From Salegentibacter mishustinae (GTDB lineage: Bacteria; Bacteroidota; Bacteroidia; Flavobacteriales; Flavobacteriaceae): a stretch of 64,000 nucleotides of DNA. Below are positions 17,720 through 36,423 of the stretch, in pieces. The stretch covers positions 124,001 to 188,000 of the forward strand of contig NZ_LLKN01000003.1 of NCBI RefSeq assembly GCF_002900095.1, written 5' to 3'. The translations under genes were made by a program, and so were the position numbers. The notes beneath the pieces were generated by a model, which had not been told where the DNA came from, ran no database searches, and saw only the letters and a program-made list of their open reading frames with translations. How positions within the stretch are numbered: position 1 is the first letter of the stretch; every line of letters starts with the position of its first letter.

Positions 17720-17733
17720 CGAAAACGTTTGCG
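17720..17733. promoter_or_regulatory. Candidate LacI-type operator upstream of the SusC gene
   Basis: CGAAAACGTTTGCG is a near-palindrome around a central CG, the shape of LacI/GalR-family operators (AAACGTTT core). It lies about 90 bases before the SusC start in a 286-base intergenic stretch that otherwise shows only AT-rich sequence. No LacI-type regulator is in the window. Confidence 0.35.
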
Positions 17734-17822
17734 TTTAAAAGGATTTCTATAATTAGCATAATTTTTTACTAAATTAGGACTTCAACTTAATGGTTTAATT
17801 AATCAACTGTAAAATTAAATTT

Positions 17823-20800
17823 ATGAAACATGGATTACTCAAAATTGGTTTGTTTCTAAGTGCTATTTTCTGTTTTGGATTTACCCAGGCACAGGAAACA
17901 GTAACGGGAACGGTAACCGATGGGGAAATGCCTCTGCCAGGAGTGAACGTTGTTGTGAAGGGAACTTCTAATGGTACCGTTACAGATTTTGACGGGAACT
18001 ATTCCTTAAACAATGTTCCAACAGATGGGGTATTGGTATTTAGCTTTGTAGGCTATGCCCAACAAGAAATTCCGGTAAACGGAAGAACAACAATTGATGC
18101 AACAATGGCAGAAGATGCCGCTGCATTAAGCGAGGTTGTAGTTATTGGTTATGGAAATGTTGAAAAGCGGGATGCTACCGGAGCAGTATCTACAGTTTCC
18201 TCTGAAGACTTTAATCAAGGTGTAATTTCTTCACCTGAAGAATTGATACAGGGAAAAACTGCAGGTTTACAGGTTACGGCATCTAGCGGAGAACCGGGAG
18301 CGGGTGTTAACATTCGTATTCGAGGAACAACATCGGTTAGAGGTGGTAACAATCCCTTATTTGTTGTAGATGGCGTGCCTTTGGCCGGAAACGAAGTTTC
18401 TGCAGGAGGTGGTGATGTAGGTTTTGGAGAATCGAGCTCGAAAAACCCATTAAACTTCCTTAATCCATCAGATATTGAAAGTATAAGTGTTCTTAAAGAT
18501 GCTTCGGCAACCGCCATTTATGGTTCCAGAGGAGCCAATGGTGTGGTAATTATTACTACTAAAGATGGTCGTGGAGATCAAGGAAGAATAAATTATAGTA
18601 CTAATCTTGGTATTGCAACTCCAGCTAATGAATTTGATCTTCTAGATAGAGAGGAGTTTTTAGATGCTGCTGAAAGTTATGGTGGTAACAGAGAAGACCT
18701 TGATTTTGGAGGAGATACAAACTGGCAAGATGAAATTACCCGATCAGCATTTTCGCAAATTCATAACCTGTCTTATTCTAACTCATATACTGGCGGAAAC
18801 TATAGAGTATCTGGGAACTATACAAACCAAAATGGTATTATAGAAAATACATCTATGGAGCGATTAACTGGAAGGCTAAATTTAACTCATAGACTTTTTG
18901 ATGATAAATTGAGATTAAATCTTCAATCAACAATTGCCAGGGTAAATGATGAACGTGCGGCTATTTCTGATAACGCCGGTGCACAGGGAGATTTATTAGG
19001 TACAGCTTACTTTGCCAATCCTACTTATCCATCAGATCCTGAGTTTACACCTGGAGGAGATTTTATAAATCCTCTAGCCTTATTGAAGTATTACCAGGAT
19101 GAAACTGAAACCGATAGAGTTTTAATTAATTTATCTGCCGATTACAAAATTCTACCGGAACTCAGTGCTAAAGTTGCTCTAGGCTATGATGAGTCTAATT
19201 CATATCGTGGGTCAGCTATTTCGGGAGATATTGCGGGTGTAGGTTCTGGTGTCCCAGGAAATGGTAGAGGGAATATTAATGAGATTAATACTACCAATCG
19301 TTTAATGGAGATCACATTTAACTATGAAAAAGAATTTGAAAATTCCAAGTTTACAGCACTAGCTGGTTATTCTTTTCAGGATTTTAACCGTTCAGGTGTG
19401 AATGTTAGCGGTTTTGGATTCTCTACAGGGGATATGGATGCCATGATAGAAGAACTTCAGGACGGTAGAGATGCCATTGAAGGATCTATAAATGGATCTT
19501 ATCAACAATATGGCTACACCGGAGATGACGTTTTTGTAAATAGACTCTTTCCAGAAATCACTACGGATAATGTGGCTGGCCCCTCTGGAATTACTACTAG
19601 TGCTATTGCAGGAGATACTTTTGACACTACTGATGAATTACAATCGTTCTTTACCAGGTTAAATTATGATCTGGCTGGTAAATATTTGTTCACAGCAACA
19701 TTAAGAGCTGATGGTTCTACAAGATTTGGCGGAAATAATAAATATGGATATTTCCCATCAGGAGCTTTTGCCTGGCAAATGGGTGATGAAGATTTTATTC
19801 CCGAAGCTTTTTCTACTTTAAAGCTTAGATTAGGTTATGGTGTAACCGGTAATCAAGAAATTCCTTATAACCAGTATCAACAACGTGAGAGATGGGCCGG
19901 TTTCGGAGTCAACAATGGTGGAGGTATAGATGCACCTGGTACTACTTTGGTTTCATTTGCAAATCCAGATTTACAATGGGAAGAAACAAGTCAAACCAAC
20001 ATTGGTCTTGATTATGGTTTTATGAATGACAGGTTAAGTGGTTCCTTAGATTTCTATTATAAAAATACCACCGACCTTTTGATTCAGATATTTTCCGCTC
20101 AACCTTCTCCTCAACCTTTTGTTTTCCAGAATCTAGATGCAAATGTTATCAATAAAGGAATTGAGTTTGCTATTGATTATAATATTATTCAACAGGAAGA
20201 TTTATTCTGGAACTTCGGCTTCAACATCGCATATAACGACAACATGGTTGAAGATTTCGATGGAGTTATCGATACCGGTGGAATTAGTGGACAGGGATTA
20301 ACAGGAGCTTTTGCGCAACGTTTAGTTGGAGGGCAACCATTATTCTCCTATTATTTGAGAGAGTTTGCAGGATTTGATGAAACTGGACAGTCTATATATC
20401 CGAATGGAGATGTTCAGGAGTTTGTAGGAAAAAGCGCCTTACCAACGACTAACCTTGGTATTTCTACCAGTGTTGAGTATATGAATTGGGATTTATCTGC
20501 ATTTCTTACAGGGCAATTTGGCCACTACATATATAATAACACTGAGAACGCTTTCTTTACAGCAGGTGCAATTGGAAATGGCAGGAACGTGACCCAAAGT
20601 GTAATTGGCAATGGTGAATCTAATCTTAACGCACCCGATGTTTCAACACGCTTCCTTGAAAAAGGAGATTTCTTAAGAATGCAAAACCTTACTTTAGGTT
20701 ATAATTTTGACATTCAAGAAGAAAGTTTATTCAATTCACTAAGATTATCGTTAACTGGACAAAACCTTTTTGTAATCACAGATTATACAGGTCTTGATCC

Positions 20801-20909
20801 AGAGGTAGATACTAACAAAGCACTAAACAATGTTCCTTCGGCAGGTATAGATTATACCGCATACCCGAGACCAACAACAGTGACTTTTGGTTTAAATGCA
20901 TCATTTTAA
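17823..20909 (+). CDS. SusC/RagA-family TonB-linked outer membrane protein
   Basis: This 1028-residue protein has a signal peptide (cleavage near residue 23, after TQA), a carboxypeptidase-like regulatory domain (residues about 25-100, VTGTVTDGEMPLPGVNVVVK), a TonB box-like SEVVVIGYG, a plug domain (IRIRGTTSVRGGNNPLFVVD, YGSRGANGVVIITTK) and a 22-strand barrel ending in aromatic VTFGLNASF. SusC proteins import oligomers across the outer membrane with energy from TonB. The SusD partner starts ten bases downstream. No glycoside hydrolase or lyase is linked, so the substrate is not evident; the following genes encode FG-GAP proteins and a haloperoxidase-like enzyme. Confidence 0.96.
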   Translation: MKHGLLKIGLFLSAIFCFGFTQAQETVTGTVTDGEMPLPGVNVVVKGTSNGTVTDFDGNYSLNNVPTDGVLVFSFVGYAQQEIPVNGRTTIDATMAEDAAALSEVVVIGYGNVEKRDATGAVSTVSSEDFNQGVISSPEELIQGKTAGLQVTASSGEPGAGVNIRIRGTTSVRGGNNPLFVVDGVPLAGNEVSAGGGDVGFGESSSKNPLNFLNPSDIESISVLKDASATAIYGSRGANGVVIITTKDGRGDQGRINYSTNLGIATPANEFDLLDREEFLDAAESYGGNREDLDFGGDTNWQDEITRSAFSQIHNLSYSNSYTGGNYRVSGNYTNQNGIIENTSMERLTGRLNLTHRLFDDKLRLNLQSTIARVNDERAAISDNAGAQGDLLGTAYFANPTYPSDPEFTPGGDFINPLALLKYYQDETETDRVLINLSADYKILPELSAKVALGYDESNSYRGSAISGDIAGVGSGVPGNGRGNINEINTTNRLMEITFNYEKEFENSKFTALAGYSFQDFNRSGVNVSGFGFSTGDMDAMIEELQDGRDAIEGSINGSYQQYGYTGDDVFVNRLFPEITTDNVAGPSGITTSAIAGDTFDTTDELQSFFTRLNYDLAGKYLFTATLRADGSTRFGGNNKYGYFPSGAFAWQMGDEDFIPEAFSTLKLRLGYGVTGNQEIPYNQYQQRERWAGFGVNNGGGIDAPGTTLVSFANPDLQWEETSQTNIGLDYGFMNDRLSGSLDFYYKNTTDLLIQIFSAQPSPQPFVFQNLDANVINKGIEFAIDYNIIQQEDLFWNFGFNIAYNDNMVEDFDGVIDTGGISGQGLTGAFAQRLVGGQPLFSYYLREFAGFDETGQSIYPNGDVQEFVGKSALPTTNLGISTSVEYMNWDLSAFLTGQFGHYIYNNTENAFFTAGAIGNGRNVTQSVIGNGESNLNAPDVSTRFLEKGDFLRMQNLTLGYNFDIQEESLFNSLRLSLTGQNLFVITDYTGLDPEVDTNKALNNVPSAGIDYTAYPRPTTVTFGLNASF

Positions 20910-20918
20910 AAAAGTATT

Positions 20919-22508
20919 ATGAAAAGGAGTATTTTAAAGATAACACTAGCTACTTTAGGAGTTCTAAGTATTGCGTCTTGTACCGATCTTGAACTAGAAG
21001 ATACCGATTCGGTAACCCGTGAATCTACTGATGGTGGATTCGACGGTGTGAGTAATGTAGAAGGCTCAATAAATAACGCATATAACACTATTCAGGGGCA
21101 TTTACAAACTCAGGAAAACTTGTATGCTTTACAGGAGGCTACATCAGATGAACTATTAATTCCAACCCGCGGAACAGACTGGGGAGATAATGGTGTATGG
21201 AGAACACTACATCAACATAATTGGGATGCAACCCATCCCTTCATTTTAAATACCTGGAATAATTTTAATTCAAGTGTATTTTCACTAACTGAAATTATTG
21301 AGACCTCAGATGCAAGTGCAGCCCAAGTTGCAGAAGCAAAGGTTCTTAGAGCTTTTAGCATGTATTGGATCATAGATTTGTTCGGACAGGTTCCATTTAG
21401 AGGTGTAAATGAAGGACCAGATGTAAACCCAATGGTGATGTCTCGCTCGGAAGCCTTTAATTTTGCAATGAAAGATCTTCAGGAAGCCTTACCAGAACTG
21501 CCATCAAATGGTCCTGGAGCAAACACTAATCGAGCTTCTAAAGCTTTAGCTAATTTTTTATTAGCTAAAATGTACCTTAATAAGCATATTTATCTAGGTA
21601 CAGGAAGTCCGGCTACTGAGGATATGAATCAGGTGATAGACCATGTTGATGCAATTTCAGCAGATGGGTTCGCCCTTCAAAGTGGGTTCTTTCAAATTTT
21701 TGAGCCAGATGTAGATGTATCTGACACCGAAATAATTTTCAGAACTAACTATGGTGCAGATGCCAGAATGTGGAGTACGTTGCATTATAATCAAGGTACA
21801 CCAGGACAGCCGCCAGGAGGTTGGAACGGTTTTACAACTTTGGCCGAATTTTATGATTTATTTGAAGGTGATCCCCAGGTTAATGTACCAGACTCAGGAC
21901 AGGAGGAACGCAGAGGCTTTGTGCCTACTTCTGGTAACAATGCACAGGCAGGTGATTTAGATGAAGATGGAGATGGTTTTGAAGATGGTTCTTATATCGG
22001 CTACGGTTTTCTTATAAACCAACAATATGATTTAGATGGTTCTGAATTGACAGATAGAACGGGTAATCCTTTAGCGTTTACCAAAGAACTTCCAGCACTT
22101 GTTGGTAACAACGAAAGAACAGGAATAAGGTTATTAAAGTATCACCCTTCTGATGGTGCTTATCCTGGAAATTTAATCGTATTCCGATATGCTGACGCTC
22201 ATCTTATGAAGGCTGAAGCTATTCACAGAGGTGGCACATCAGGCGAATCAGCTATAGGATTGATCAACGAATTACGTGAACTAAGGGAAGCAACTCCCTT
22301 GGCTAGCATAACCGATCAAGATATATTAGATGAGCGAGGACGTGAATTATATATGGAGTTTACACGACGCCAGGATCAAATTAGATTCGGTACTTATACC
22401 AGTACGTGGTCGTTTAAGGATAATACAGAAGCCTTTAGAGTTCTATTTCCAATACCATCAACGGCACTTACTTCTAATCCTAACTTAGTACAGAACGAAG
22501 GTTATTAA
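20919..22508 (+). CDS. SusD/RagB-family nutrient-binding outer membrane lipoprotein
   Basis: A 529-residue lipoprotein with signal peptide and lipobox SIASC (Cys 21), then an acidic stretch as is common for surface lipoproteins of this phylum. The helical SusD fold is indicated by the N-terminal NAYNTIQGHLQTQENLYALQ, AEAKVLRAFSMYWIIDLFGQ with the conserved PF, and the C-terminal part ADAHLMKAEAIHRGG and ILDERGRELYMEFTRRQDQI, ending PNLVQNEGY. It caps the SusC pore and binds the ligand. It shares a transcript with the SusC gene and is followed by a hairpin that may reduce but not stop read-through into the next genes. Confidence 0.95.
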   Translation: MKRSILKITLATLGVLSIASCTDLELEDTDSVTRESTDGGFDGVSNVEGSINNAYNTIQGHLQTQENLYALQEATSDELLIPTRGTDWGDNGVWRTLHQHNWDATHPFILNTWNNFNSSVFSLTEIIETSDASAAQVAEAKVLRAFSMYWIIDLFGQVPFRGVNEGPDVNPMVMSRSEAFNFAMKDLQEALPELPSNGPGANTNRASKALANFLLAKMYLNKHIYLGTGSPATEDMNQVIDHVDAISADGFALQSGFFQIFEPDVDVSDTEIIFRTNYGADARMWSTLHYNQGTPGQPPGGWNGFTTLAEFYDLFEGDPQVNVPDSGQEERRGFVPTSGNNAQAGDLDEDGDGFEDGSYIGYGFLINQQYDLDGSELTDRTGNPLAFTKELPALVGNNERTGIRLLKYHPSDGAYPGNLIVFRYADAHLMKAEAIHRGGTSGESAIGLINELRELREATPLASITDQDILDERGRELYMEFTRRQDQIRFGTYTSTWSFKDNTEAFRVLFPIPSTALTSNPNLVQNEGY

Positions 22509-22527
22509 TAACTTGAATTAGTTTTAT

Positions 22528-22573
22528 AAAAGAGGCTATTAATGCATTGCATTATTAGTCTCTTTTCTTTTTA
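22528..22573 (+). terminator. Hairpin terminator after the SusD gene
   Basis: AAAAGAGGCTATTAATGC pairs with GCATTATTAGTCTCTTTT (16 of 18 positions pair canonically, one further G-U pair), with a three-base loop and then CTTTTTAT. It could attenuate expression of the FG-GAP genes relative to SusCD. Confidence 0.7.
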
Positions 22574-22646
22574 TATACCTAAACTATTCTTAAAATTTGC
22601 TTAAATTGCTAGGCGATAAGCCCATATCAAAATATGCATTAGCTTA

Positions 22647-25600
22647 ATGAAATTAAACCTCCACTTCCCTACTTCTTCAGCTTTCATTTTAATACTTATT
22701 AACTTGTTTTTTATCTCCTGTACAAACGATAAGCAGGAAAAAGAACTACAGGACAAAGAAGTAAATAAAGATGCCTTATTTGTAAAAATGCACTCTGAAG
22801 AAACAGGAATAGAATTTGAAAATACTATTACCAATACTAAAGAATTCAACATCTTTAGGTATCGAAATTTCTATAATGGTGCCGGTGTAGGTATTGGTGA
22901 TATCAATAATGATGGACTACCGGATATTTACTTAACCTCAAATCTTGGTAAAAATAAACTTTACCTGAATAAAGGTGATTTTCAATTTGAAGATATCACG
23001 CTTAGTTCAGGCACATCAGGAACAAAAAACTGGAGCACCGGAGTTAGCTTCGTAGACATTAACCACGACGGATTTCTAGATATCTATGTTAGCAATGCCG
23101 GAAATATTGAAGGGGCAGATCGTAAAAATGAACTTTTTATAAATAATGGAGATCTTACATTCACTGAAGACGCCGCTTCTTATAATTTAGATGAAAACGG
23201 ATTTACCACCCACGCCGCGTTTTTTGATTATGACGGGGATGGCGATCTTGATGTATACATCCTCAACAATAGCTTTATCCCGGTTTCCAGCCTTAGTTTT
23301 AATAATAAACGTGATCTTAGAAGTGAAGACTGGGACCTACCGGAAATTTTTAAAGGCGGTGGTGATAAATTACTACGTAATGATGACGAGAAATTTACCG
23401 ATGTTAGTGAAGAAGCAGGAATTTACGGAAGCTTAATAGGTTTTGGGCTCGGAGTTACCGTAGGTGATGTAAATAACGATCAATTACCCGATCTTTATAT
23501 TTCGAATGATTTTTATGAGCGGGATTACCTTTATATAAATAACGGCGATGGCACTTTTAATGAAGACATTAAAAACCGGGTTTCACACCTTAGTCTTTCT
23601 TCTATGGGTGCAGATATGGCCGACATTAACAACGATGCTCAACCAGAGATCTTTGTGACCGATATGCTTCCGGAAAGCGATAAACGACTTAAAGAAACTA
23701 CAGATTTTGAGCGATTTGACATCTATAAACTTAAAGAAAGTAGGGATTTCTATCACCAGTTTATGCAGAACACCTTACAGCTAAATACCGGAGAAAATTC
23801 GTTCTCTGAAATCGCATTTCAAAGCGGTGTAGCACAAACAGACTGGAGTTGGGGCGCCCTACTTTTTGATATGGATAATGACGGCTTCAAAGATATTTAT
23901 GTGAGTAACGGTATCTACCACGACCTTACTAACCAGGATTTTATGGATTTCTTTGCTAACGATATTCTTCAGGAAATGGTTCTTACCGGTAAGAAAAAAG
24001 AATTTGATTCCATTCTAAGTGAAATGCCCAGCAATCCTATTCCCAATTATGCTTTTCAGAATAAACAAGATCTAACATTTGATGATAAAACTAAAGATTG
24101 GGGTCTACAGGAACCCAGCTTCTCTAACGGCTCAGCCTATGCCGACCTTGATAATGATGGCGATCTCGACCTCGTGGTAAACAATGTAAACCAGGAAATC
24201 TTTATTTACAAAAATAGATCTTCAGAAAAATTGGGGAATAGTTATTTAAAATTAAAACTTCGAGGGAAAGATAAAAACACGTTTGCCATTGGCAGTAAGG
24301 CACTACTCTACCTCAATAATCAAGTCATTTCCCAGGAATTGATTCCTACGAGAGGTTTTCAGTCTTCAATAGATTACAGCTTAACATTTGGCCTGGGAAA
24401 AGCAGAAAAAATAGATTCCCTCAGGATTATCTGGCCAGATAGATCAACCCAGCTTGTTGAAAATCCTAAGATCAATACAACCTTAGAGTTTAATCAGGCT
24501 GAAGCTAATTCAACCTATAAGCCACAAAAAAATAATATAAAACCTGTATTTTCTGAAGTAAACGCAAACTTTAAAGCACACACAGAGAATAACTATATAG
24601 ATTACGATTACGAAGGGCTTATCTCAAAAATGTTGTCCCGGGAAGGTCCTGCATTAGCTGTGGCAGATGTTAACGGAGATGGAAACGAAGACTTATACTT
24701 AGGAGGCGCAAAAGGCCAGGCTGGCGTTCTTTATTTACAGGATAATTCTGGAAACTTCAGCGAAAAAAGTCTCAAAATTTTTACCTCAAATAAAAATTTT
24801 GAAGACACCTATGCCGTTTTTGCTGATGTAAATGGCGACAATAAACCAGACTTAATAGTAGGTTCAGGCGGGAATGAAGCAAACGCAGATAAAGAAGTAT
24901 TTCGTAATAGAATTTATATAAATCAGGGAAATGGTAATTTTAGAACTTCAGAATACCAGCTGCCTAATTCCGCTCAAAATACTTCTGTAATCGCGCCTTA
25001 TGATTTTGATGATGACGGCGATACCGATCTATTTATAGGAACCAGAAGTGTTCCGGGAATTTTTGGAATTAACCCAAAACATCTATTATTAGAAAATGAT
25101 GGAAAAGGAAGTTTTAAAGATGTGACCGACGGGAAAGCTTATATTCTTAACGATCTGGGAATGATCACCGATGCCGCCTGGAGCGACACCAACAAGGATG
25201 ATAAAAAAGATCTCGTGCTAACGGGCGACTGGATGGCGCCTAAAATTCTTTTAAACAATGGAAGTTCCTTTAAACTGGCAAATAATAATCTAGACGAAAT
25301 TTCCGGAGCCTGGACAGCACTTTCAGTTTTCGATATAAACAAAGATGAAAACCCTGATTTTATTTTAGGAAATCGAGGTACTAACTCGTTTTATCAAACT
25401 TCATCCGAAAACCCGGTTAAAGTTTATATTAACGATTTTGACAATAATGGCACAATAGAGCAAATTTTCACCAGAAATATTGATGGCAAGGATGTTCCTA
25501 TTCATTTAAGACGGGAATTGGCCGGACAAATATCCGCAATCAAAAAGCAGAATTTAAAATTTTCAGAATATGCCACAAAATCTATTCAAGAGCTCTTTTC

Positions 25601-26021
25601 TACTGAGTTTGTTGAAAATTCCATCGTAAAAGAAATAACAACATTTAAAAGTCTATTAGCCTTAAGTGATTCTAAAGGAAATTATGAGTTTAAAGAACTT
25701 CCCGCTGAAGCACAATTTTCCAGCATTCACGCGATTGAACATTTAATCACTAAAGATGAAAATAACTATTTCCTGCTCGCCGGAAACGATTATGACTTAA
25801 AACCTCAATTTTCCCGTTTAGACGCAAACAAGGGACTTCTGCTTAAAGTTGACAACAAGGGGGATATGGAAATCATTCCAGCAGAAAAATCGGGATTTTC
25901 AATTGATGGCGAAGTAAAGTATATCCGGAAAATTTCAAATAAAAATGGAGAAATTTTCATTCTGGTAGCCATAAATAATCAGGAACCAAAAATCTTTAAG
26001 TTCGATGAAAAAGCTCTTTAA
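22647..26021 (+). CDS. FG-GAP/VCBS repeat lipoprotein with ASPIC/UnbV domain (CRTAC1-like), copy 1
   Basis: A 1124-residue lipoprotein: signal peptide, lipobox FISC, charged stretch after the Cys. Many FG-GAP/VCBS repeats carry calcium-type loops of the form DxNxDGxxDIY (DINNDGLPDIYL, DINHDGFLDIYVSN, DYDGDGDLDVYI), predicting one or two beta-propellers. An ASPIC/UnbV-like segment lies at about residues 530-620 (FAIGSKALLYL, LIPTRGFQSSIDYSL, IDSLRIIWPDRS), followed by a second set of repeats. The family binds calcium and mediates adhesion or ligand binding in eukaryotic CRTAC1; the bacterial role is unknown. It overlaps the next gene by 17 bases, so the two copies are translated from one message. 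Confidence 0.9.
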   Translation: MKLNLHFPTSSAFILILINLFFISCTNDKQEKELQDKEVNKDALFVKMHSEETGIEFENTITNTKEFNIFRYRNFYNGAGVGIGDINNDGLPDIYLTSNLGKNKLYLNKGDFQFEDITLSSGTSGTKNWSTGVSFVDINHDGFLDIYVSNAGNIEGADRKNELFINNGDLTFTEDAASYNLDENGFTTHAAFFDYDGDGDLDVYILNNSFIPVSSLSFNNKRDLRSEDWDLPEIFKGGGDKLLRNDDEKFTDVSEEAGIYGSLIGFGLGVTVGDVNNDQLPDLYISNDFYERDYLYINNGDGTFNEDIKNRVSHLSLSSMGADMADINNDAQPEIFVTDMLPESDKRLKETTDFERFDIYKLKESRDFYHQFMQNTLQLNTGENSFSEIAFQSGVAQTDWSWGALLFDMDNDGFKDIYVSNGIYHDLTNQDFMDFFANDILQEMVLTGKKKEFDSILSEMPSNPIPNYAFQNKQDLTFDDKTKDWGLQEPSFSNGSAYADLDNDGDLDLVVNNVNQEIFIYKNRSSEKLGNSYLKLKLRGKDKNTFAIGSKALLYLNNQVISQELIPTRGFQSSIDYSLTFGLGKAEKIDSLRIIWPDRSTQLVENPKINTTLEFNQAEANSTYKPQKNNIKPVFSEVNANFKAHTENNYIDYDYEGLISKMLSREGPALAVADVNGDGNEDLYLGGAKGQAGVLYLQDNSGNFSEKSLKIFTSNKNFEDTYAVFADVNGDNKPDLIVGSGGNEANADKEVFRNRIYINQGNGNFRTSEYQLPNSAQNTSVIAPYDFDDDGDTDLFIGTRSVPGIFGINPKHLLLENDGKGSFKDVTDGKAYILNDLGMITDAAWSDTNKDDKKDLVLTGDWMAPKILLNNGSSFKLANNNLDEISGAWTALSVFDINKDENPDFILGNRGTNSFYQTSSENPVKVYINDFDNNGTIEQIFTRNIDGKDVPIHLRRELAGQISAIKKQNLKFSEYATKSIQELFSTEFVENSIVKEITTFKSLLALSDSKGNYEFKELPAEAQFSSIHAIEHLITKDENNYFLLAGNDYDLKPQFSRLDANKGLLLKVDNKGDMEIIPAEKSGFSIDGEVKYIRKISNKNGEIFILVAINNQEPKIFKFDEKAL

Positions 26022-29000
26022 CCTGATATTTTTAATGATCTTTTTCGCTTCCTGTGAAAAAGAAAAAACACGGGAGGATTTTCTCTTTGAAAAACTTCCG
26101 GCAGAAACTACAGGCTTAAATTTTAGCAACGAGCTTACAGAAACCAATGCGCTTAATATTTTAGATTATTTGTACTACTACAATGGCGGTGGTGTTGCCG
26201 TTGGAGATGTTGATAACAATGGGTTACCCGATATTTACCTTACCGGAAACCAGGTGAAAAACAAGCTTTTTCTCAATAAGGGAAATATGCAATTTGAAGA
26301 TCTTACGGAAAAGGCTGGCGTGGCAGGAAGATCAGACTGGAATACCGGTGTGGTTATGGCCGATGTGAATGCCGATGGTTTTCTGGATATCTATGTATGT
26401 GCCGTGTCTGGAATCAACGGTTTAAACGGAAAAAATGAATTGTTCATCAATAACGGCGATGGTACATTTACTGAAAAAGCCGAAGAGTTCGGACTAGATT
26501 TTCAGAATTATTCTTCTACCGCTGCTTTTTTCGATTTTGATAACGATGGCGATTTAGATATGTACCTCCTAAACCACGCCGTACACACCGTAAATACTTA
26601 TGGCCCGGCTGATATTCGGAATAAACGCATTGCAGAAAGTGGCGATAAATTGTTAAGAAATGACGACGGAAAATTTACAGATATAAGCGAAGAAGCCGGC
26701 GTTTATGGAGGTGCAAATGGTTATGGTCTTGGCCTGGCTACCGCCGATTTTAATAATGATGGCTTTACCGATATTTATGTAAGTAACGATTTTCACGAAG
26801 ACGACTATTACTATTTAAATAACGGCGACGGTACCTTTACCGAAACGCTAAAATCTAAATTTGGGCATGTGAGTCGGTTTTCTATGGGAAATGATGCGGC
26901 CGATGTGAATAATGATGGTTTTATAGATATGATGACGCTGGATATGCTTCCTGAAGATGAAAAAGTTTTAAAAGCATCTGTAGGTGACGATCCCCGAGAC
27001 CTGGATAAACTGAAAACCGAAGAACTTGGGTATCATAACCAGTATACCAGGAATATGCTTCATATTAACCAACGGGGAGAATATTTTCAGGAAACCGGAC
27101 TTCTAAATGGCGTAGCGGCAACAGATTGGAGTTGGGCTCCCCTATTCGCCGATTTTGATCAGGATGGGTTTCAGGATCTTTTTATCGCAACCGGAATTCC
27201 AAAACGCCCTAACGACCTGGATTATATTAAATACGTTTCCAGTAACCAGATCCGGAATAAAATAAATAATACTCGCCTGGTAGATAACGAAGCCCTTGAT
27301 AGAATGCCTTCTGGAAAGGTGCATAATTATGTTTTTAAAGGTTCTGAAAGTCTTGATTTTAAAGATCAATCGGGCAAATGGATTGCACGCGATTCTGTGA
27401 TCTCTACGGGAATCGCTTATGCCGATCTAGACAATGACGGAGATTTGGATATTGTGAGTAATAATATTGATGCTAATGCGAGTATTTACGAAAATCAATC
27501 TGATTCCACTTCGGCTTACTTACAATTATCATTTAAGCTAATTAATAAAAATACATTCGGGATTGGCACAAAAGTAATTGCCTGGCAGGATGGCAAAATG
27601 CAAACCCGTCAACTCTATAATTCTAAGGGATTTCAATCTTCTTCACAACCTATTATTCATTTCGGATTTAAGAAGAATAAGAAACTAGATTCCCTGTTAA
27701 TTATTTGGCCAGACAATACTTTTCAGAAACAAACAGGAGTTGTTTTAAATCAGCATTTAAAAATTAGCCCAAATCAGAATCTTGAGAAAATTGATTATAA
27801 AAGACTTTTTCCTGCTCCAAAACCCTGGTTTGAAAAAATAGATTCTTTACCGGGTATCAATTTCAATCACCGGGAAAACAGGTATACCGACTTTGATCGC
27901 CAAAAATTGATTCCTTATCAAATTTCAGATCGAGGCCCAGCGGTTGCAGTTGGAGATTTAAATGCTGATGGCCTGGAGGATATTTACTTCGGAAATTCAA
28001 AATTTGAACCGGCAGAAATCTATTTTCAACAAAAGAATTTCTTTAAAAAACAGGATCTAAAATTATTAAAAGCAGATGAAAAAACTGAAAATACCTCTGC
28101 AGTTATTGCGAATTTCAATAATGATAGCGGCAATGAACTTTTTGTTACTTCGGGCGGTGGTGAATTTTATGGCGAGGCGGATGCTTTACTGGATAGACTT
28201 TATGCATTTGAAAAGGCGGAACTAACGGCTAAAGAATTGCCTGAATATTTCGAAAATACTTCAGTAGCGAAATTAAGTGATATTGATGGTGATGGGGATC
28301 TAGACATTTTTGTAGGCGGAGCGGCAGTTTCTAACGATTTTGGAAAACTTCCATCCTCCTATTTGCTTATTAATGAAGACGGAAATTTTAAGATTCAGAA
28401 GAATGCAGAATTAGAAAACTTAGGAATGGTAACTAACGCTATTTGGACCGATTTTGATAAAGATGGCCGGGAAGATCTTATCGTAATTGGCGAATGGATG
28501 TCACCTCAATTTTTCAGAAATAATAAGGGAAAATTAGAGAATATTTCAGGAAAAATACTGGATAAAAAACTAAATGGCCTTTGGCAAAGCATCGTTCCGT
28601 TTGATATAAATAATGACGGTGAAATGGATTATTTGCTGGGAAATTGGGGACTGAACACAAAATTCGCTGCCTCAGCAGAGTTTCCGCTAAAAATGTTTTA
28701 TTCAGATTTCGACAATAACGGAAGCACAGAAACAATTGTAGCTTATGCAAAAAATAAAAAATATTATCCTGCAAACGGGCTTGATGAACTTGTGGGACAA
28801 CTTTCTTATTTACGCAAGAAATTCCCGGCTTATAAGGATTTTGCCGGAAAATCTATTGAAAATATTTTCGATAAAGAAGTTTTAGAAAAAGCTAAAGTAC
28901 TGGAAGTACACACAATGGCTTCCGGATATTTGCTAAATAAGGATGGAAAGTTTACTTTTAGGGCGTTTAAAAATGCCTTACAGGTTGCACCTATTTTGGC

Positions 29001-29271
29001 ATTTTTAAAAGCAGATTTTGATAAAGATAATCAGGAAGAAGTATTGGTAGCGGGGAATTATTTTGGAGTAACACCTTATCACGGCAGATTTGATGCCCTG
29101 GCAGGAAACATTATTACAAATAAAGGCGAAATTCTGGAGGGCGTTGAAATTGGCTTAAATTTGACGCAAAAAAGTGTAAGAAACTTAGACATTGTATCTT
29201 TCAGGGGCAATGATTATCTTATGGTAAGCCTAAATAACGGCAAACCAGAATTCTATAAATTAAAGGATTAA
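26005..29271 (+). CDS. FG-GAP/VCBS repeat lipoprotein with ASPIC/UnbV domain (CRTAC1-like), copy 2
   Basis: This 1088-residue lipoprotein (lipobox FASC) has the same plan as the gene before it: N-terminal FG-GAP repeats (DVDNNGLPDIYLTGN, DVNADGFLDIYVCA, DFDNDGDLDMYLLN), an ASPIC/UnbV-like segment near residues 515-590 (GIGTKVIAWQDGKM, LLIIWPDNTFQ) and more repeats to the end. The two proteins align along their whole length and are clear paralogues from tandem duplication, yet differ at many positions. The start codon lies inside copy 1 and the stop abuts the haloperoxidase start with no gap, indicating tight translational coupling. Probable location is the outer membrane or cell surface. Confidence 0.9.
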   Translation: MKKLFNLIFLMIFFASCEKEKTREDFLFEKLPAETTGLNFSNELTETNALNILDYLYYYNGGGVAVGDVDNNGLPDIYLTGNQVKNKLFLNKGNMQFEDLTEKAGVAGRSDWNTGVVMADVNADGFLDIYVCAVSGINGLNGKNELFINNGDGTFTEKAEEFGLDFQNYSSTAAFFDFDNDGDLDMYLLNHAVHTVNTYGPADIRNKRIAESGDKLLRNDDGKFTDISEEAGVYGGANGYGLGLATADFNNDGFTDIYVSNDFHEDDYYYLNNGDGTFTETLKSKFGHVSRFSMGNDAADVNNDGFIDMMTLDMLPEDEKVLKASVGDDPRDLDKLKTEELGYHNQYTRNMLHINQRGEYFQETGLLNGVAATDWSWAPLFADFDQDGFQDLFIATGIPKRPNDLDYIKYVSSNQIRNKINNTRLVDNEALDRMPSGKVHNYVFKGSESLDFKDQSGKWIARDSVISTGIAYADLDNDGDLDIVSNNIDANASIYENQSDSTSAYLQLSFKLINKNTFGIGTKVIAWQDGKMQTRQLYNSKGFQSSSQPIIHFGFKKNKKLDSLLIIWPDNTFQKQTGVVLNQHLKISPNQNLEKIDYKRLFPAPKPWFEKIDSLPGINFNHRENRYTDFDRQKLIPYQISDRGPAVAVGDLNADGLEDIYFGNSKFEPAEIYFQQKNFFKKQDLKLLKADEKTENTSAVIANFNNDSGNELFVTSGGGEFYGEADALLDRLYAFEKAELTAKELPEYFENTSVAKLSDIDGDGDLDIFVGGAAVSNDFGKLPSSYLLINEDGNFKIQKNAELENLGMVTNAIWTDFDKDGREDLIVIGEWMSPQFFRNNKGKLENISGKILDKKLNGLWQSIVPFDINNDGEMDYLLGNWGLNTKFAASAEFPLKMFYSDFDNNGSTETIVAYAKNKKYYPANGLDELVGQLSYLRKKFPAYKDFAGKSIENIFDKEVLEKAKVLEVHTMASGYLLNKDGKFTFRAFKNALQVAPILAFLKADFDKDNQEEVLVAGNYFGVTPYHGRFDALAGNIITNKGEILEGVEIGLNLTQKSVRNLDIVSFRGNDYLMVSLNNGKPEFYKLKD

Positions 29272-30606
29272 ATGAAGAAATTACTTTATATAATTATTTG
29301 TACTGTTGTCTTCAGTTCCTGTACTAAGGAAGAAAAACCTATTATAATTTCTGCTGAAAATTATCATCAAACCGTTGATAAGATCACAGATATTATGGTA
29401 CATGATATTTTTTCACCTCCGGTAGCCAGCCGAATATATGCTTATTCCAATCTGGCCGCCTACCAAATTATAAGGCAGGAGAATAAAGATTTAATTGATC
29501 TAACTTCAAATTTCGAAGAACTACAACCAATTCCAAAAGCTGATTCTATCACTAAGGTAAACCTTAAGCTTGCAGCACTGGTTGCCCAAATGGAGATAGG
29601 AAAAAAATTGATCTTTTCTGAAGAATTACTTACCTCCTACCGTGACAGTCTTTATACTTCCTGGAAAAAAACCAATGAGGAAGAATTCAATACCTCAAAA
29701 GAATACGGATTGGAAGTTGCGCAGCATCTTTCGAAATGGATAGATAAAGATAATTATAAAGAAACGCGTACTATGCCTAAATACTCTGTGTATAGTGACG
29801 ACCCGGGACGCTGGCAACCTACGCCGCCTTCCTATATGGATGGAATTGAGCCACACTGGCCAAAAATTAGACCTTTTACACTAGATTCTGCTTCCCAATT
29901 TAAACCGGCACCTCACCCCGAATTCTCCCTTGAAGAAGGCACTGCATTTTATGATGAACTTATTGAAGTTTATGAAATAAACAAAAAAATGGAGGAAGAA
30001 GGAGATGAAGCTGAAGAAGTTAAAATTGCTCAGTTTTGGGATTGCAATCCTTATGTCTCTACTCAACGTGGTCATCTAATGTTTGCCACAAAAAAGATAA
30101 CTCCCGGAGGCCACTGGATGGGTATTTGCAAAATAGCCTCAAAAAAAGCCGATCTTGATTTCGCTCAAAGTTCTTACGCATACACGGCCACGGCCATCGC
30201 CCTTGCGGACGGATTTATAAGTTGCTGGGAGGAAAAATACAGTAGTAACTTGGTAAGACCTGAAACCTTGATTAATAAGTACGTAGATGAAAATTGGAAA
30301 CCCGTTTTACAAACTCCGCCATTCCCGGAATATTCCAGCGGGCATTCAGTTGTATCAGGTGCAGCTTCTATAGTGCTTACCAAAATTTTTGGAGAAGAAT
30401 TTAGTTTTGAAGACGATACTGAAGTAAAATATGGGTTACCGGTAAGATCTTTTAAATCTTTCTCTCACGCTGCCAGCGAGGCTGCTGTAAGTAGGTTGTA
30501 TGGCGGTATACATTACCGTGCTGCTATAGAAAATGGCCTTGTTCAAGGGAAAAATCTGGGCAACCACGTGGTAAAAGACCTCAACCTACAACCCCTCACC
30601 TACTAA
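29272..30606 (+). CDS. Vanadium-dependent haloperoxidase/PAP2-fold lipoprotein
   Basis: A 444-residue lipoprotein (lipobox FSSC) with the three phosphate/vanadate-binding motifs of the PAP2-haloperoxidase superfamily: KYSSNLVRP (K-x6-RP, about residues 322-330), YSSGHSV with the acid/base His at 358, and SRLYGGIH (SR-x5-H, residues 407-414). The spacing and the PFPEYSSGHS context match bacterial vanadium haloperoxidases more than membrane PAP2 enzymes. It would oxidise halide with hydrogen peroxide, or act as an acid phosphatase, outside the cytoplasm. Halide preference cannot be read. It starts directly at the end of the second FG-GAP gene. Confidence 0.85.
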   Translation: MKKLLYIIICTVVFSSCTKEEKPIIISAENYHQTVDKITDIMVHDIFSPPVASRIYAYSNLAAYQIIRQENKDLIDLTSNFEELQPIPKADSITKVNLKLAALVAQMEIGKKLIFSEELLTSYRDSLYTSWKKTNEEEFNTSKEYGLEVAQHLSKWIDKDNYKETRTMPKYSVYSDDPGRWQPTPPSYMDGIEPHWPKIRPFTLDSASQFKPAPHPEFSLEEGTAFYDELIEVYEINKKMEEEGDEAEEVKIAQFWDCNPYVSTQRGHLMFATKKITPGGHWMGICKIASKKADLDFAQSSYAYTATAIALADGFISCWEEKYSSNLVRPETLINKYVDENWKPVLQTPPFPEYSSGHSVVSGAASIVLTKIFGEEFSFEDDTEVKYGLPVRSFKSFSHAASEAAVSRLYGGIHYRAAIENGLVQGKNLGNHVVKDLNLQPLTY

Positions 30607-30610
30607 GTAA

Positions 30611-31513
30611 ATGTCAAAAAAAAATTGGCTGTTCATCCTTATAGGTATACTTGTGCTTTTTTTGCTCTGGTATTTTGCAATTAAGGATAGGGATTATGCA
30701 ATTCATTTTGAAACTAAAGCAATTCCAGGCGAAATAGCCTATAGGTTGGATGTACCTCGATTTAATGATTTGGAGATTAAGAACACAGCGATTAAAGCTG
30801 ACTTTTCTAATGTAGTACAAGACGCAAAATTAGGTGATGAATCCTACGACCTTAATTGGGTTATTAGCAAAAAGAATGATTCTGTTTATAAGGTAAAAGT
30901 CAATATTAAGAATCAAGACCATTCCCTAAAAGATCGTTTTTTATTGCTAATGGAGCAAAACGATTTCCAAAAGGAAATGAAAGAAGAAATTCAGTTTTTT
31001 AAAGAAGCACTCAATGCCCATCGCGAACTATATTCTGTAAAAATCAAAGGAAAAACCTCTTCTCCTGAAAATATTTGTGCTTGTATTGATGCTAAAAGTA
31101 GCGTTGAGCAGAAAGCCTTTGAGATGATGAAAACTATAGATATATTATCTGGTTATATTCTTAACAATAAATTAGAAACCCGCGGCAGGCCCAGGATACT
31201 AATTGACTCCTGGGATCAAACCACTAAACAAATCAGTTTTAATTTTTGTTTTCCTATCGCTAAAATGGAAACATATCCGGCACATCCCATTATTAAGATC
31301 AAAAATATCCCTGCGGAAAAAACCTTAAAAGCCAGTTTTTACGGAAATTATATGTTTTCCCATTATGCCTGGTTGCATTTAATAGATTATGCTGAAAAAA
31401 ATAATATTGCAGTGAAAATGGAGAATATCCTGGAGGTTTTTCAGAATAATCCCCAAATGGGAGGAGATGAATCGCAATGGCAGGCAGACATATACCTTCC
31501 TATTGCCGAATAA
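30611..31513 (+). CDS. Membrane-anchored protein with GyrI-like effector-binding domain
   Basis: This 300-residue protein has one N-terminal membrane helix (WLFILIGILVLFLLWYFAI, residues 5-23) and an outward-facing body. The middle resembles an SRPBCC-type beta sheet. The last ~150 residues look like a GyrI-like/effector-binding domain: ETRGRPRILIDSWD, ISFNFCFPIA, LKASFYGNYMFSHYAWLHLI and a final WQADIYLPIAE, the usual pattern of that fold. Such domains bind small hydrophobic molecules. There is no DNA-binding domain. It starts four bases after the haloperoxidase stop and ends the plus-strand block. Family assignment is moderate and function unknown. Confidence 0.6.
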   Translation: MSKKNWLFILIGILVLFLLWYFAIKDRDYAIHFETKAIPGEIAYRLDVPRFNDLEIKNTAIKADFSNVVQDAKLGDESYDLNWVISKKNDSVYKVKVNIKNQDHSLKDRFLLLMEQNDFQKEMKEEIQFFKEALNAHRELYSVKIKGKTSSPENICACIDAKSSVEQKAFEMMKTIDILSGYILNNKLETRGRPRILIDSWDQTTKQISFNFCFPIAKMETYPAHPIIKIKNIPAEKTLKASFYGNYMFSHYAWLHLIDYAEKNNIAVKMENILEVFQNNPQMGGDESQWQADIYLPIAE

Positions 31514-31554
31514 GAACACAAAGAAAAGGTACGCTAAACTCTGATTTTAAAAAA

Positions 31555-31592
31555 GCAAAAAGCCCTCAAAGAATGAAACTGTGAGGGCTTAA
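31555..31592 (-). terminator. Terminator for the minus-strand GMC dehydrogenase operon
   Basis: AAGCCCTCA (31560-31568) pairs with TGAGGGCTT (31582-31590). Read on the minus strand the hairpin is followed by TTTTGCTTTTTT, so it mainly ends transcription coming from the dehydrogenase genes; the plus side has only a weak T run. Confidence 0.75.
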
Positions 31593-31626
31593 TTATTCGT
31601 AATGAGATTTAAGTTTTAAATAATGA

Positions 31627-32271
31627 TTAAAGAGACATAGCTTTACCTCCGCCCAATTCGTCTAATGGTCCGCAAGGGATATACTCACCGGGAACCGGAT
31701 CGTACCACATAACATTTTCACCAATTTCTTCACTGGTTTTATAAGCCCATATTCCCATATTACGTACTTCCTGCAAATATGCCAGGGAACCTGCATCTGC
31801 GTCTAAAGTAACTTTTAAATCCCTATCCTGTGGATCTTGAGTTTCGGTATTTCGCTTTGCAATCTCATCCATTTCAGCAGGAGAAGCCTTTAGGTATTTA
31901 GCCACCATTTGTTCATATTCCTCAGGACTTCCTTCTCCCTCTTCTTTATCAAATTCATTCTTAAATGCTCTTGAAAATGCATCTGCAGATTGTTTGAACT
32001 TTTCCTGTCTTTCCTTAGAAGCTACTTCTTGAATGTAGGAATCTATAAATTCTGCAATATTTAGATCTTCGGCTCCGGGAGTTTCAGTTTTTGGAATAAT
32101 TACCTCTAAAATCTGTTTTAACGCAAAACCATTTGATGCACTTAAAAATGTAGGCTCCCAGTTATAAGTAGGCTCATTTTTACAGCTTTGTAAAAGGTTT
32201 AAGGTAGTTGGGCCTACAATAATGGCCCCCGCTCCAAGTCCTATGTTTCTTAATGCCTGTCTTCTGTTCAT
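31627..32271 (-). CDS. Gluconate 2-dehydrogenase subunit 3 family protein, Tat lipoprotein
   Basis: The chosen start at 32271 gives a 214-residue protein beginning MNRRQALRNIGLGAGAIIVG, a twin-arginine signal, with a lipobox-like LLQSC; an upstream start at 32316 would overlap the preceding gene and bury the signal. The rest (NGFALKQILEVIIPKTETPG, EFIDSYIQEVASKERQE) is typical of subunit 3 of membrane-linked FAD sugar dehydrogenases. The small subunit escorts the catalytic GMC subunit through Tat and anchors it. The GMC gene ends ten bases upstream, so the two form one operon and one complex, probably periplasmic. Confidence 0.9.
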   Translation of the reverse strand: MNRRQALRNIGLGAGAIIVGPTTLNLLQSCKNEPTYNWEPTFLSASNGFALKQILEVIIPKTETPGAEDLNIAEFIDSYIQEVASKERQEKFKQSADAFSRAFKNEFDKEEGEGSPEEYEQMVAKYLKASPAEMDEIAKRNTETQDPQDRDLKVTLDADAGSLAYLQEVRNMGIWAYKTSEEIGENVMWYDPVPGEYIPCGPLDELGGGKAMSL

Positions 32272-32281
32272 AACTCTAATT

Positions 32282-33985
32282 TTAAGCGTTAGATTTTTTG
32301 AAATTTTTTGAAGCATGGTCTGCTGCTCTTGCCGTCATAGCCATATAGGTTAAAGATGGATTTTGGCAGCCTGCAGAGGTCATAAAAGCCCCATCAGTTA
32401 CATAAACATTTTTAACTGCATGCACCTGATTATTACCATTTAAAACCGATGTTTTTGGATCTCTTCCCATTCGGGCGGTTCCCATTTCGTGAATTCCAAG
32501 GCCCGGAGCACCAATATCATCATAGCCCTGTACATCTTTAAACCCGCCTTTTTCCAGCATCTCTACTGCCTGTGCTACCATATCTTCTCTCATTTTAAGT
32601 TCATTTTCCTTGAACTCTGCATCAAAAGTTACGGTTGGTAAGCCCCATTCATCGGTTTTATTATAATCCAGGGTCATTTTATTTTCGTGGTAAGGTAAGG
32701 TCTCTCCAAAGCCCATTAAGCCCATAGTCCAGCCGCCAGGTTTAACAATAGCTTCTTTTAATTCCTTTCCATAAGATGCTTCGGCAATACTTTCACTCCA
32801 ATCTCCACGACCGGCACCTCCCTGGTAACCATAACCACGAATAAAACCAAGGTTACCGCTTCCGTTTATATTCCTAAATCGGGGTAAATAGATCCCATTA
32901 GGTTTTCTTCCTTTATAATATTGATCTTTAAAACCATCATATTTTCCAGAAGCACCAGCTTTAAAGTGGTGGTCCATTACATTATGTCCTAATTCTCCAC
33001 TATCGTTACCCATTCCGTTTTCAAATCGATCAGATTTTGATTGCATCAGGATACTTGTAGAAGCAATGGCAGAAGCACAAAGGAAAATTACATTAGCTTT
33101 AAATTCTATTTTTTCTTTAGTTTCAGCATCAATTATTTTTACTCCGGTAGCCAATTTGGTTTCAGGATCGTAAACTACTTCGTGAACTACTGAATTTGGC
33201 CTTAAGGTCATATTACCAGTACGCTCGGCAGCAGGTAATGTAGAAGAATTACTGCTAAAATAGCCTCCGTAAGGACACCCGCGAATACATCTATTTCTAA
33301 ACTGACAATTTGAACGCCCTTCAAATTTTTTATCGCCTGTAATATGCGCCACACGTCCCGCAGTTAAAACACGTCCGTCCGTAAAATTCTCGGCCATACT
33401 TTTTTTAAGGTGATCTTCCACACAATTTAAAGGCATCTGCGGTAGAAACTTCCCATCTGGCAACTGGCTTAAACCAAGATTCTCACCACTTACCCCGATA
33501 AAAGATTCTACATAATCATACCACGGAGCAATGTCTCTATAACGAATTGGCCAATCTACACCATGACCATCGGTTTTATTTGCAGTAAAATCCAGATCGC
33601 TTAAACGGTAGCTGTGCCTTCCCCACATAATAGATCTTCCGCCTACGTGGTATCCACGCATCCAGTCAAATCTTTTGGTTTCATTATAGGGATGCTTTAT
33701 ATCGTCTACAAACCAATGCGCACTAGCCTTATTCGTAGTATAACCTGTACGGGATTGTTTTTGCTGGCGTTTTTCTTCTTCACGCGTTAATTGTCCTTTG
33801 AACTTATAATCCCAGGGATCATCGTTCATGGTAGGATAATCTTCTATATGTTTAACCATACGCCCACGTTCCAGAACGAGGGTTTTAAATCCTTTCTCAC
33901 TAAGCTCTTTCGCGGCCCAACCGCCGCTAATTCCTGTACCTACGACTATAGCATCATAAGTGTCATTTTCATAATAATTGCTCAC
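32282..33985 (-). CDS. GMC-family FAD sugar dehydrogenase, catalytic subunit (glucoside 3-dehydrogenase-like)
   Basis: This 567-residue flavoprotein starts with the FAD-binding motif YDAIVVGTGISGGWAAKELS and ends with VTDGAFMTSAGCQNPSLTYM, both typical of GMC oxidoreductases; the probable catalytic His is in GIHEMGTARMG. A CX5CX3C set (CQFRNRCIRGCPYGG) could hold an iron-sulfur centre as in FAD-dependent hexose dehydrogenases. It lacks its own signal, as expected if it is carried by the Tat signal of the adjacent small subunit. In this context (3-keto-disaccharide hydrolase, TIM barrels, Gfo/Idh) oxidation of the C3 hydroxyl of a glycoside is the best guess; other sugars or alcohols remain possible. 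No cytochrome partner gene is adjacent. Confidence 0.88.
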   Translation of the reverse strand: MSNYYENDTYDAIVVGTGISGGWAAKELSEKGFKTLVLERGRMVKHIEDYPTMNDDPWDYKFKGQLTREEEKRQQKQSRTGYTTNKASAHWFVDDIKHPYNETKRFDWMRGYHVGGRSIMWGRHSYRLSDLDFTANKTDGHGVDWPIRYRDIAPWYDYVESFIGVSGENLGLSQLPDGKFLPQMPLNCVEDHLKKSMAENFTDGRVLTAGRVAHITGDKKFEGRSNCQFRNRCIRGCPYGGYFSSNSSTLPAAERTGNMTLRPNSVVHEVVYDPETKLATGVKIIDAETKEKIEFKANVIFLCASAIASTSILMQSKSDRFENGMGNDSGELGHNVMDHHFKAGASGKYDGFKDQYYKGRKPNGIYLPRFRNINGSGNLGFIRGYGYQGGAGRGDWSESIAEASYGKELKEAIVKPGGWTMGLMGFGETLPYHENKMTLDYNKTDEWGLPTVTFDAEFKENELKMREDMVAQAVEMLEKGGFKDVQGYDDIGAPGLGIHEMGTARMGRDPKTSVLNGNNQVHAVKNVYVTDGAFMTSAGCQNPSLTYMAMTARAADHASKNFKKSNA

Positions 33986-34048
33986 TGTCTTGTAGTTAAT
34001 TAATAATTTAGTTAATCGAATCCTCCCAAATATATAAATTTAAGGTTA

Positions 34049-34056
34049 TAATTTTG
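34049..34056 (+). promoter_or_regulatory. Candidate -7 promoter box for the sugar-isomerase operon
   Basis: TAATTTTG fits the Bacteroidota -7 consensus TAnnTTTG and lies about 80 bases before the start at 34135, in the divergent region shared with the GMC dehydrogenase operon. No clear -33 box was found. Confidence 0.35.
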
Positions 34057-34134
34057 CTTCTTTAAAAAAAAGTATACTTTTAAGATTCTAAAAAAATCGG
34101 AACATCACATTCTAGCAACTTTTAAATCTATTTT

Positions 34135-35148: not shown

Positions 35149-35166
35149 GAGAAGCCAGAGTAGATA

Positions 35167-36402: not shown

Positions 36403-36423
36403 CCAAGCAAAAGATTAAAAATT

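Follow-up and report, generated by a model that had tools for sequence, protein, structure and literature searches.

A conserved SusCD, CRTAC1-like and haloperoxidase gene block in Salegentibacter mishustinae that suggests a tie between iodine chemistry and sugar feeding

Genes of the block and their predicted products

The window analysed here is a stretch of 64,000 nucleotides from Salegentibacter mishustinae (positions 124,001 to 188,000 of contig NZ_LLKN01000003.1, part of a 3.8-Mb genome in five contigs); coordinates below are numbered within it. Six plus-strand genes, spanning 17823-31513, form the block under study. The first two are a SusCD pair, i.e. a SusC/RagA-type TonB-linked outer-membrane barrel transporter of 1028 amino acids (aa; 17823-20909; TIGR04056, 726 bits) followed by a SusD-like lipoprotein of 529 aa (20919-22508; SusD_RagB, Pfam/NCBIfam). 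Then come two large lipoprotein-type FG-GAP/ASPIC-UnbV (CRTAC1-like) proteins, FG1 (1124 aa; 22647-26021) and FG2 (1088 aa; 26005-29271), each with FG-GAP_3 matches and one ASPIC/UnbV domain, a vanadium haloperoxidase (VHPO) of the Zobellia iodoperoxidase type with a lipoprotein-type N terminus (444 aa; 29272-30606), and a membrane-anchored GyrI-like protein (300 aa; 30611-31513). All six open reading frames (ORFs) were confirmed. FG1 and FG2 overlap by 17 bases, FG2 and VHPO abut with 0 bases between them, and 4 bases separate VHPO from GyrI; the original prediction, made by a model from the letters of the window, was exact on the genes, their families and this spacing. It had described the spacing as very tight from the first FG gene on, with SusCD just upstream; at the SusCD junction, 138 bases and a strong terminator-like hairpin lie between SusD and FG1. 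No carbohydrate-active enzyme was found among the six genes with Pfam/NCBIfam, and the block is thus not classed as a polysaccharide utilisation locus; the statement that no glycoside hydrolase is included stands for the six genes, but in a number of relatives a GH65 gene is found near the block SusC. A regional scan revealed no step in GC content at the block.

The VHPO matches PAP2 with 35 bits (cut-off 27.2; Pfam/NCBIfam) and is homologous over its full length (residues 1-439 of 444) to 4cit/4usz (E 1.1e-194, 650 bits). The seven residues which we take to be the vanadate ligands, K322, R329, S356, G357, H358, R408 and H414, are all present. Relatives at E ≤ 1e-30 were found in 60 of 149 sampled Flavobacteriaceae genomes and in 74 of the 395 of the phylum sample. 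We scored 63 Flavobacteriaceae loci and the best VHPO locus from each of 60 genomes outside the family, 59 of which were scorable and make up the wider set (the other, L178, was left out as no VHPO frame was labelled). The seven ligands are invariant in all 63 Flavobacteriaceae loci and, depending on the position, present in 55-59 of the 59 wider loci. Using the lipobox motif as a loose lipoprotein pattern, we found a lipobox-like cysteine in 62/63 Flavobacteriaceae and 34/59 wider VHPO; those of SusD, FG1 and FG2 were assigned by eye. The nearest named locus is that of Salegentibacter salarius, whose VHPO is 96% identical.

4USZ is the vanadium iodoperoxidase of Zobellia galactanivorans (PMC5064120), and an excerpt of PMC10427571 reports that the Zobellia enzyme, used as a control in a gel assay, gave iodoperoxidase activity only. 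A third Zobellia iodoperoxidase (vIPO3) is described, in an excerpt of PMC9296495, as up-regulated on Ascophyllum versus alginate. Because the excerpted control gave iodoperoxidase activity only, bromide is less likely as the substrate. The naming of a haloperoxidase-like protein in the original prediction is thus upheld by a complete vanadate site and great closeness to a characterised iodoperoxidase and, of the functions listed for it there, iodide oxidation is the one best supported, by homology. In one relative (L053), an enzyme near-identical to 4cit has three FG genes directly upstream, indicating that the characterised enzyme type belongs to the block. Downstream of the L053 enzyme, a GyrI relative was detected by tblastn, without recovery as a single open frame; it is possibly broken.

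FG1 and FG2 contain 8 and 12 Dx[DN]x[DN]G motifs, respectively, which in FG-GAP repeats bind calcium. This abundance of calcium-type motifs agrees with the earlier description of CRTAC1/ASPIC-UnbV proteins as calcium-binding. The AlphaFold model of FG2, computed from a 62-row alignment, has a predicted local distance difference test (pLDDT) score of 92.3 and finds its best match in mouse CRTAC1 (9etn; Foldseek E 8e-26, 611 columns, TM 0.68 on target). By domain layout, the CRTAC1-matching part is the half that ends with the ASPIC domain (519-585). The half beyond it is beta-rich, contains a further five calcium-type motifs and, judging from the model, is probably another propeller.

A further small lipoprotein-like protein (cluster c8, ~190-205 aa) was seen in 16 loci, among them L062, L064, L071 and L087 (6263-6865), and its gene sits between two FG genes in all 16. 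The cluster representative has no Pfam or NCBIfam match.

The GyrI-like profile scores barely above threshold (26.4 versus a cut-off of 26). The model of the protein (pLDDT 93.8) consists of a membrane helix (residues 3-24), an N-terminal domain to ~138 and a GyrI fold (142-298), the nearest structures to which are CtaZ and CTR107. Residues Y247, W254, E275 and W290 are invariant in alignment A1.

Conservation of the linkage and an empty site

Neighbours were counted using our own ORF calling with profile labels. An FG gene is next upstream of VHPO on the same strand in 51/63 Flavobacteriaceae and 33/59 wider loci (in L042, the FG counted as upstream lies 3268 bases away), and lies within seven genes of it in 58/63 and 43/59, respectively; in L037 and L053, the FG2 or GyrI relative was found by tblastn without recovery as a frame. 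Where the two are adjacent, the gap is below 25 bases in 47 of the 51 Flavobacteriaceae and 23 of the 33 wider loci. ASPIC genes are rare, with three in the window's genome (two of them in the block) and 79 in 20 genomes totalling ~72 Mb, i.e. ~1 per 0.9 Mb, so that a VHPO would have an FG neighbour by chance in about one case in a thousand. The order is also kept: an FG2-type gene is first upstream of VHPO in 46/51 loci and an FG1-type gene, with which FG1 itself groups, is second in 41/42. Two FG genes in a row, as in the window, occur in 25/63 Flavobacteriaceae loci and three in 17/63. In a tree of FG proteins (FastTree; 78 of 131 rows, some on long branches, with 9 of the 20 ASPIC proteins chosen as unlinked passing the length filter), labels for place in the locus need 13 changes versus 44.7 in shuffles. 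The third ASPIC protein of the window's genome falls beside the FG2 group in this tree; neither SusCD nor VHPO adjoins its gene (L234).

Linkage had been the first point on which the original prediction, beforehand, chose to stand or fall, and the counts of FG next upstream of VHPO (51/63 and 33/59) bear it out; indeed, it is more conserved than that prediction could know. No other pair persists as widely in the phylum sample as an FG gene with VHPO. GyrI is directly downstream of VHPO in 32/63 Flavobacteriaceae loci and in 0/59 of the wider set, where it lies within seven genes in 3. Within the same distance in Flavobacteriaceae, SusD is found in 42/63 and SusC in 37/63 loci, counts often cut by the end of the stretch compared. 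The accompanying SusC falls into two distant types, of ~55% and ~30% identity.

Some loci have a different composition. Outside Flavobacteriaceae, L176, L180 and L184 have GyrI and an unlabelled protein of 674-680 aa between the FG genes and the haloperoxidase. A protein of ~1235 aa, in which a calcineurin-like phosphoesterase is joined to an Omp85/ShlB-like barrel (cluster c5; L106:3898-7605 and 23 relatives), is encoded near the block in many loci. An apparent FG2-VHPO fusion in L122, a frame of 1400 aa, was ruled out as the frame crosses a run of N in a contig of a metagenome-assembled genome (MAG).

The one other member of the genus in the Flavobacteriaceae sample (G031) has no VHPO at E ≤ 1e-30 and no ASPIC genes. 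Its corresponding locus (L233) reads, in the window's direction, M28 peptidase, two small frames absent from the window, a 709-aa protein that we presume to be Tex-like, APP1, DAGK, 129 base pairs, GMC subunit and GMC, and thus represents the flanks of the window without the six-gene block. DAGK was matched by tblastn (58%) and the other flank genes by eye from their N termini. This empty site indicates that the six genes are present or absent as one unit.

The genes that follow the block, at 31627-37563, encode a GMC oxidoreductase with a gluconate-2-dehydrogenase subunit-3 protein, a TIM-barrel protein, a nucleoside/sugar H+ symporter and a Gfo/Idh/MocA oxidoreductase, and look like a sugar-oxidation cluster convergent with the block. 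The GMC oxidoreductase (31627-33985) was considered as a peroxide source for the block and is unsupported as part of the unit: its cluster lies near the block in 13 of 107 partly overlapping loci (the window, L032, nine named Salegentibacter, Salinimicrobium and Zunongwangia loci, L046 and L113), and the GMC cluster stays in G031 without the block.

A LacI-type site, alpha-glucan genes and hairpins

A palindromic operator-like site of the LacI type, with a central CG, lies on the plus strand 103 nucleotides (nt) upstream of SusC (17720-17733), matching CGAAAACGTTTTCG at 13 of 14 positions, as expected of a LacI regulon. The motif ACACGAAAMCGTTTTCGTRA was read from four loci (the window, L036, L059 and L061) and its core then scored across 28 SusC-upstream regions. 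The core was found at ≥11/14 places in 18/28 regions in all and in 14/20 of those fetched after the motif had been set; these 20 were drawn from 26 listed, the six omitted being G075 and five with the diverged type of block, and the motif was thus tested for blocks of the window's type. Seventeen of the 18 sites lie 99-132 nt before the SusC start codon, and base-count shuffles reach the same score in at most 0.7%. A simple palindrome, AAACGNNNNCGTTT, was rejected: it has 9 sites in the genome versus 18 for the reversed control and, among the 28 regions, occurs upstream of the window's SusC only. A consensus scan for sigma-70 promoters and terminators yielded no excess over shuffles.

A LacI-family gene is divergent from SusC within the ~1.2 kb covered beyond it in 12 of the 20 newly fetched regions; four of these LacI are more distant (37-44% to references), and three of the four are without the motif. 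Two LacI genes are present in the window's genome. One (L289) is 61, 63 and 56% identical to the LacI of L061, L112 and L036, respectively, and 47 and 33% to those of L059 and L079. It belongs to a canonical alpha-glucan locus (L290, G000:C2:1946000-1965900) with the order GH13 cyclomaltodextrinase, GH65, beta-phosphoglucomutase (bPGM; named by resemblance), sugar MFS and LacI, divergent from SusC, SusD, SusE/F and GH13, and with a palindrome of its own (12/14).

In relatives, alpha-glucan genes adjoin the block itself. A LacI-bPGM-GH65 operon is divergent from the block SusC in four genomes (L293-L296, in G103, G026, G056 and G126), with GH13 confirmed by Pfam in L294 and L295. Of 18 genomes having both GH65 and the block, 15 have the two within 30 kb of each other and 11 have GH65 ≤~5 kb from the SusC start, figures that come from 20 genomes of which 11 were chosen knowing that a LacI gene lay upstream, and are hence biased, and from SusC starts that are partly estimated. 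Among seven other block genomes outside the window's genus, GH65 is within 30 kb in five (G143 at ~25 kb, G117, G077 and G096 at ~13-15 kb, and G080). It is not within 30 kb of the block SusC in G100, in G113 or in the window's genome; G148 has no GH65, and G031 has GH65 without the block. The reading of the block in the original prediction as an uptake or surface-modification system is partly supported, by the linkage and the vanadate site, and had overlooked both the LacI-type site and the link to alpha-glucan operons in relatives.

These neighbours would fit an uptake locus for alpha-glucan or another glucoside, in which the FG propellers stand in for SusE/SusF and, together with SusCD, bind and import the sugar, with VHPO as an accessory guard against competitors or a peroxide sink. 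The divergent LacI-bPGM-GH65 operons and the proximity of GH65 argue for it, as do the GH13, GH97 or sugar-type MFS genes that follow several loci of the diverged type (SusC ~30% identical). Against it, the window's genome already has L290, a separate canonical SusCD-SusE/F locus, so that the block SusCD is not needed for that sugar; the block SusC is only 35% identical to the canonical alpha-glucan SusC; and, in the stretches compared, an alpha-glucan or LacI gene accompanies 30/63 Flavobacteriaceae loci and none of the genes scored is found in the other 33/63. We therefore regard glucoside uptake as the purpose of the block as possible but doubtful.

The 39-base hairpin between SusD and FG1 (22528-22566) is followed by a T-rich run, CTTTTTATA, in the manner of a terminator or attenuator, and folds far better than shuffles (z -5.8 for 22515-22590). 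We scored 41 SusD-FG gaps, each of 40 bases or more and several of them from a single genus; in 39, a hairpin ending in a T-rich tail folds better than every one of 20 shuffles that preserved only base counts, although its sequence varies between genera. Present in the window and in 38 further loci, the hairpin may be a general attenuator of SusCD loci. Judging from sequence, the cell probably produces SusCD at a different level from the surface proteins, or transcribes the two in part separately, and, given the hairpin and the 138-base gap, a single tight operon can be assumed safely only for FG1-FG2-VHPO-GyrI. Separate transcripts were an outcome that the original prediction had named as counting against it, and the hairpin points partly that way. 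A second hairpin, 3' of GyrI (31560-31590; z -3.0 for 31540-31610), lies between convergent genes and is likely a terminator.

A surface halogen-oxidation reading and its relation to known systems

We tentatively favour, at somewhat less than even odds, the view that the block couples a surface halogen-oxidation (iodoperoxidase) module to SusCD uptake under sugar control. SusC and SusD would form a TonB-driven outer-membrane importer, beside which FG1 and FG2, as large and probably calcium-loaded propeller lipoproteins, would hold the haloperoxidase and/or its ligand at the surface. The VHPO lipoprotein would oxidise iodide to hypoiodous acid or iodine at the cell surface, using peroxide that might come from sugar metabolism or from algal hosts; the reaction would remove peroxide, provide iodine for uptake and perhaps harm competitors. 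The membrane-anchored GyrI-like protein may act in the periplasm, binding and possibly hydrolysing a small molecule that is reactive or aromatic. Expression would be set by a LacI-family regulator of the alpha-glucan/maltose type, with the hairpin after SusD keeping the surface proteins below SusCD levels.

Iodine uptake by Arenibacter sp. C-21 needs glucose, oxygen and calcium, a peroxide source can replace the glucose, and its genome has at least five homologues of the Zobellia-type haloperoxidase (PMC5064120). The sugar control, calcium-type propellers and peroxide-using enzyme proposed for the block match these needs; the halogen-oxidation reading would thus account for the FG-VHPO pairing, the LacI/alpha-glucan link and the requirements of Arenibacter uptake at once. 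Since the window's genome has a separate alpha-glucan locus, the block may now serve iodine under a retained sugar control, or a different glucoside may be what it imports. A bolder version, to which we give very little credence, is a sugar-induced iodine-capture machine: VHPO would make HOI/I2, calcium propellers would hold it at the SusCD gate, and oxidised iodine would enter alongside alpha-glucan chains, or inside them in the manner of the starch-iodine complex, making glucan feeding and iodine accumulation a single process.

Several observations weigh against a sugar-controlled iodoperoxidase module. Firstly, 12/63 Flavobacteriaceae and 26/59 other loci are without FG directly upstream on the same strand, and in the Arenibacter loci L108 and L111 a symporter gene on the opposite strand lies between FG and VHPO. 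Secondly, FG-VHPO pairs are also found in Chitinophagaceae such as Puia and in a 'palsa' MAG, in habitats where iodide should be scarce, and iodide may therefore not be the ancestral halide. Position 320 of VHPO, two residues before the vanadate lysine, is E, as against D in 57/63 relatives, a substitution that could, from its position, tune halide specificity. Thirdly, the regulatory link is incomplete: the palindrome core is absent from 10/28 SusC-upstream regions, including that of L032, the flanks of which resemble the named Zunongwangia loci; it is not enriched genome-wide (301 sites versus 742 for the control at ≤3 mismatches) and is thus no proof of a LacI regulon in the window's genome; neither LacI gene of that genome adjoins the block; and the block, on contig C3, is far from the alpha-glucan locus on contig C2. 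Lastly, the hairpin after SusD could set SusCD apart from the other four genes.

Two other roles for the enzyme deserve consideration. In one, VHPO acts on an organic polymer or peptide that the FG propellers hold, either halogenating it or modifying it by oxidation; SusCD then imports the product and the GyrI-like protein handles it. The persistence of the FG-VHPO pair across the phylum sample suggests a shared ligand or docking, and certain GyrI-like proteins bind, and sometimes hydrolyse, reactive aromatic compounds (excerpt of PMC5684135). This role is without a substrate candidate and GyrI directly after VHPO is confined to the Flavobacteriaceae set (32/63 versus 0/59), and we regard it as unlikely. 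In the other, the PAP2-fold enzyme is a phosphatase acting on phosphorylated glucans or other phosphomonoesters and the block takes up phosphate or phospho-sugars. The vanadate site of PAP2 enzymes binds phosphate, and both the family and the sugar-linked neighbourhood would suit such an activity. Full-length closeness to an enzyme with iodoperoxidase activity only in the excerpted assay (PMC10427571) argues against it and, among the annotated recurrent neighbour clusters, the sole phosphoesterase is the c5 metallophosphatase, outside the core; we consider a phosphatase less likely still. Least probable of all is that FG-GAP, SusCD and haloperoxidase genes are clustered merely by hitch-hiking, through shared ancestry of one locus: many loci do share synteny (xylA/xylB/symporter on one side and c6/c5 on the other), but FG-VHPO adjacency is kept in other families amid otherwise different neighbours (33/59), two distant SusC types accompany the block, and the block is present or absent whole within one genus.

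The halogen-oxidation reading thus leads the alternatives, and linkage beside starch-sugar genes in many relatives suggests that iodine chemistry is tied to sugar feeding. To our knowledge, enzymes for iodine accumulation and iodide oxidation by marine bacteria are known and a genetically defined uptake machine is not; likewise, no partner enzyme has been assigned to the CRTAC1-like proteins encoded beside SusCD genes. The block provides a concrete, conserved and testable unit that joins one enzyme to CRTAC1-like proteins and one SusCD, with a sugar regulator added in many relatives. If the favoured reading is true, alpha-glucan consumption is linked to iodine chemistry, the glucose and calcium needs of iodine uptake in a marine flavobacterium are explained, and SusCD systems can carry redox enzymes, beyond polymer-degrading ones. 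The parts are known; their combination in a SusCD-CRTAC1-haloperoxidase-GyrI block, and its control, are not described among the literature matches listed, which were titles and abstracts and did not cover the key Zobellia and Arenibacter papers.

Each part can be set beside a known system. The LacI-GH65-GH13 alpha-glucan SusCD loci share with the block SusC, SusD, downstream lipoproteins and a LacI-type site, but the block has CRTAC1-like propellers and a haloperoxidase instead of SusE/F and an amylase. CRTAC1 (cartilage acidic protein 1) shares with the FG proteins the FG-GAP repeats and the ASPIC domain, whereas the FG proteins are about twice as long, have extra FG-GAP-type motifs and beta structure after ASPIC, and start with a lipoprotein-type signal. 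The GyrI-like drug-binding proteins CtaZ (7zhd) and CTR107 and the cyclopropanoid hydrolase lin2189 resemble the C-terminal fold of the block protein, which additionally has an N-terminal membrane helix and a further domain. The Zobellia galactanivorans iodoperoxidase (4cit/4usz) is like the window VHPO in full-length homology, the seven vanadate ligands and the lipoprotein-type N terminus, and differs in having D where the window enzyme, known from its sequence, has E two residues before the vanadate lysine. Finally, iodine uptake in Arenibacter sp. C-21, to which PMC5064120 ties no locus, has the Zobellia-type haloperoxidases in common with the block, and needs calcium, oxygen and a sugar that a peroxide source can replace.

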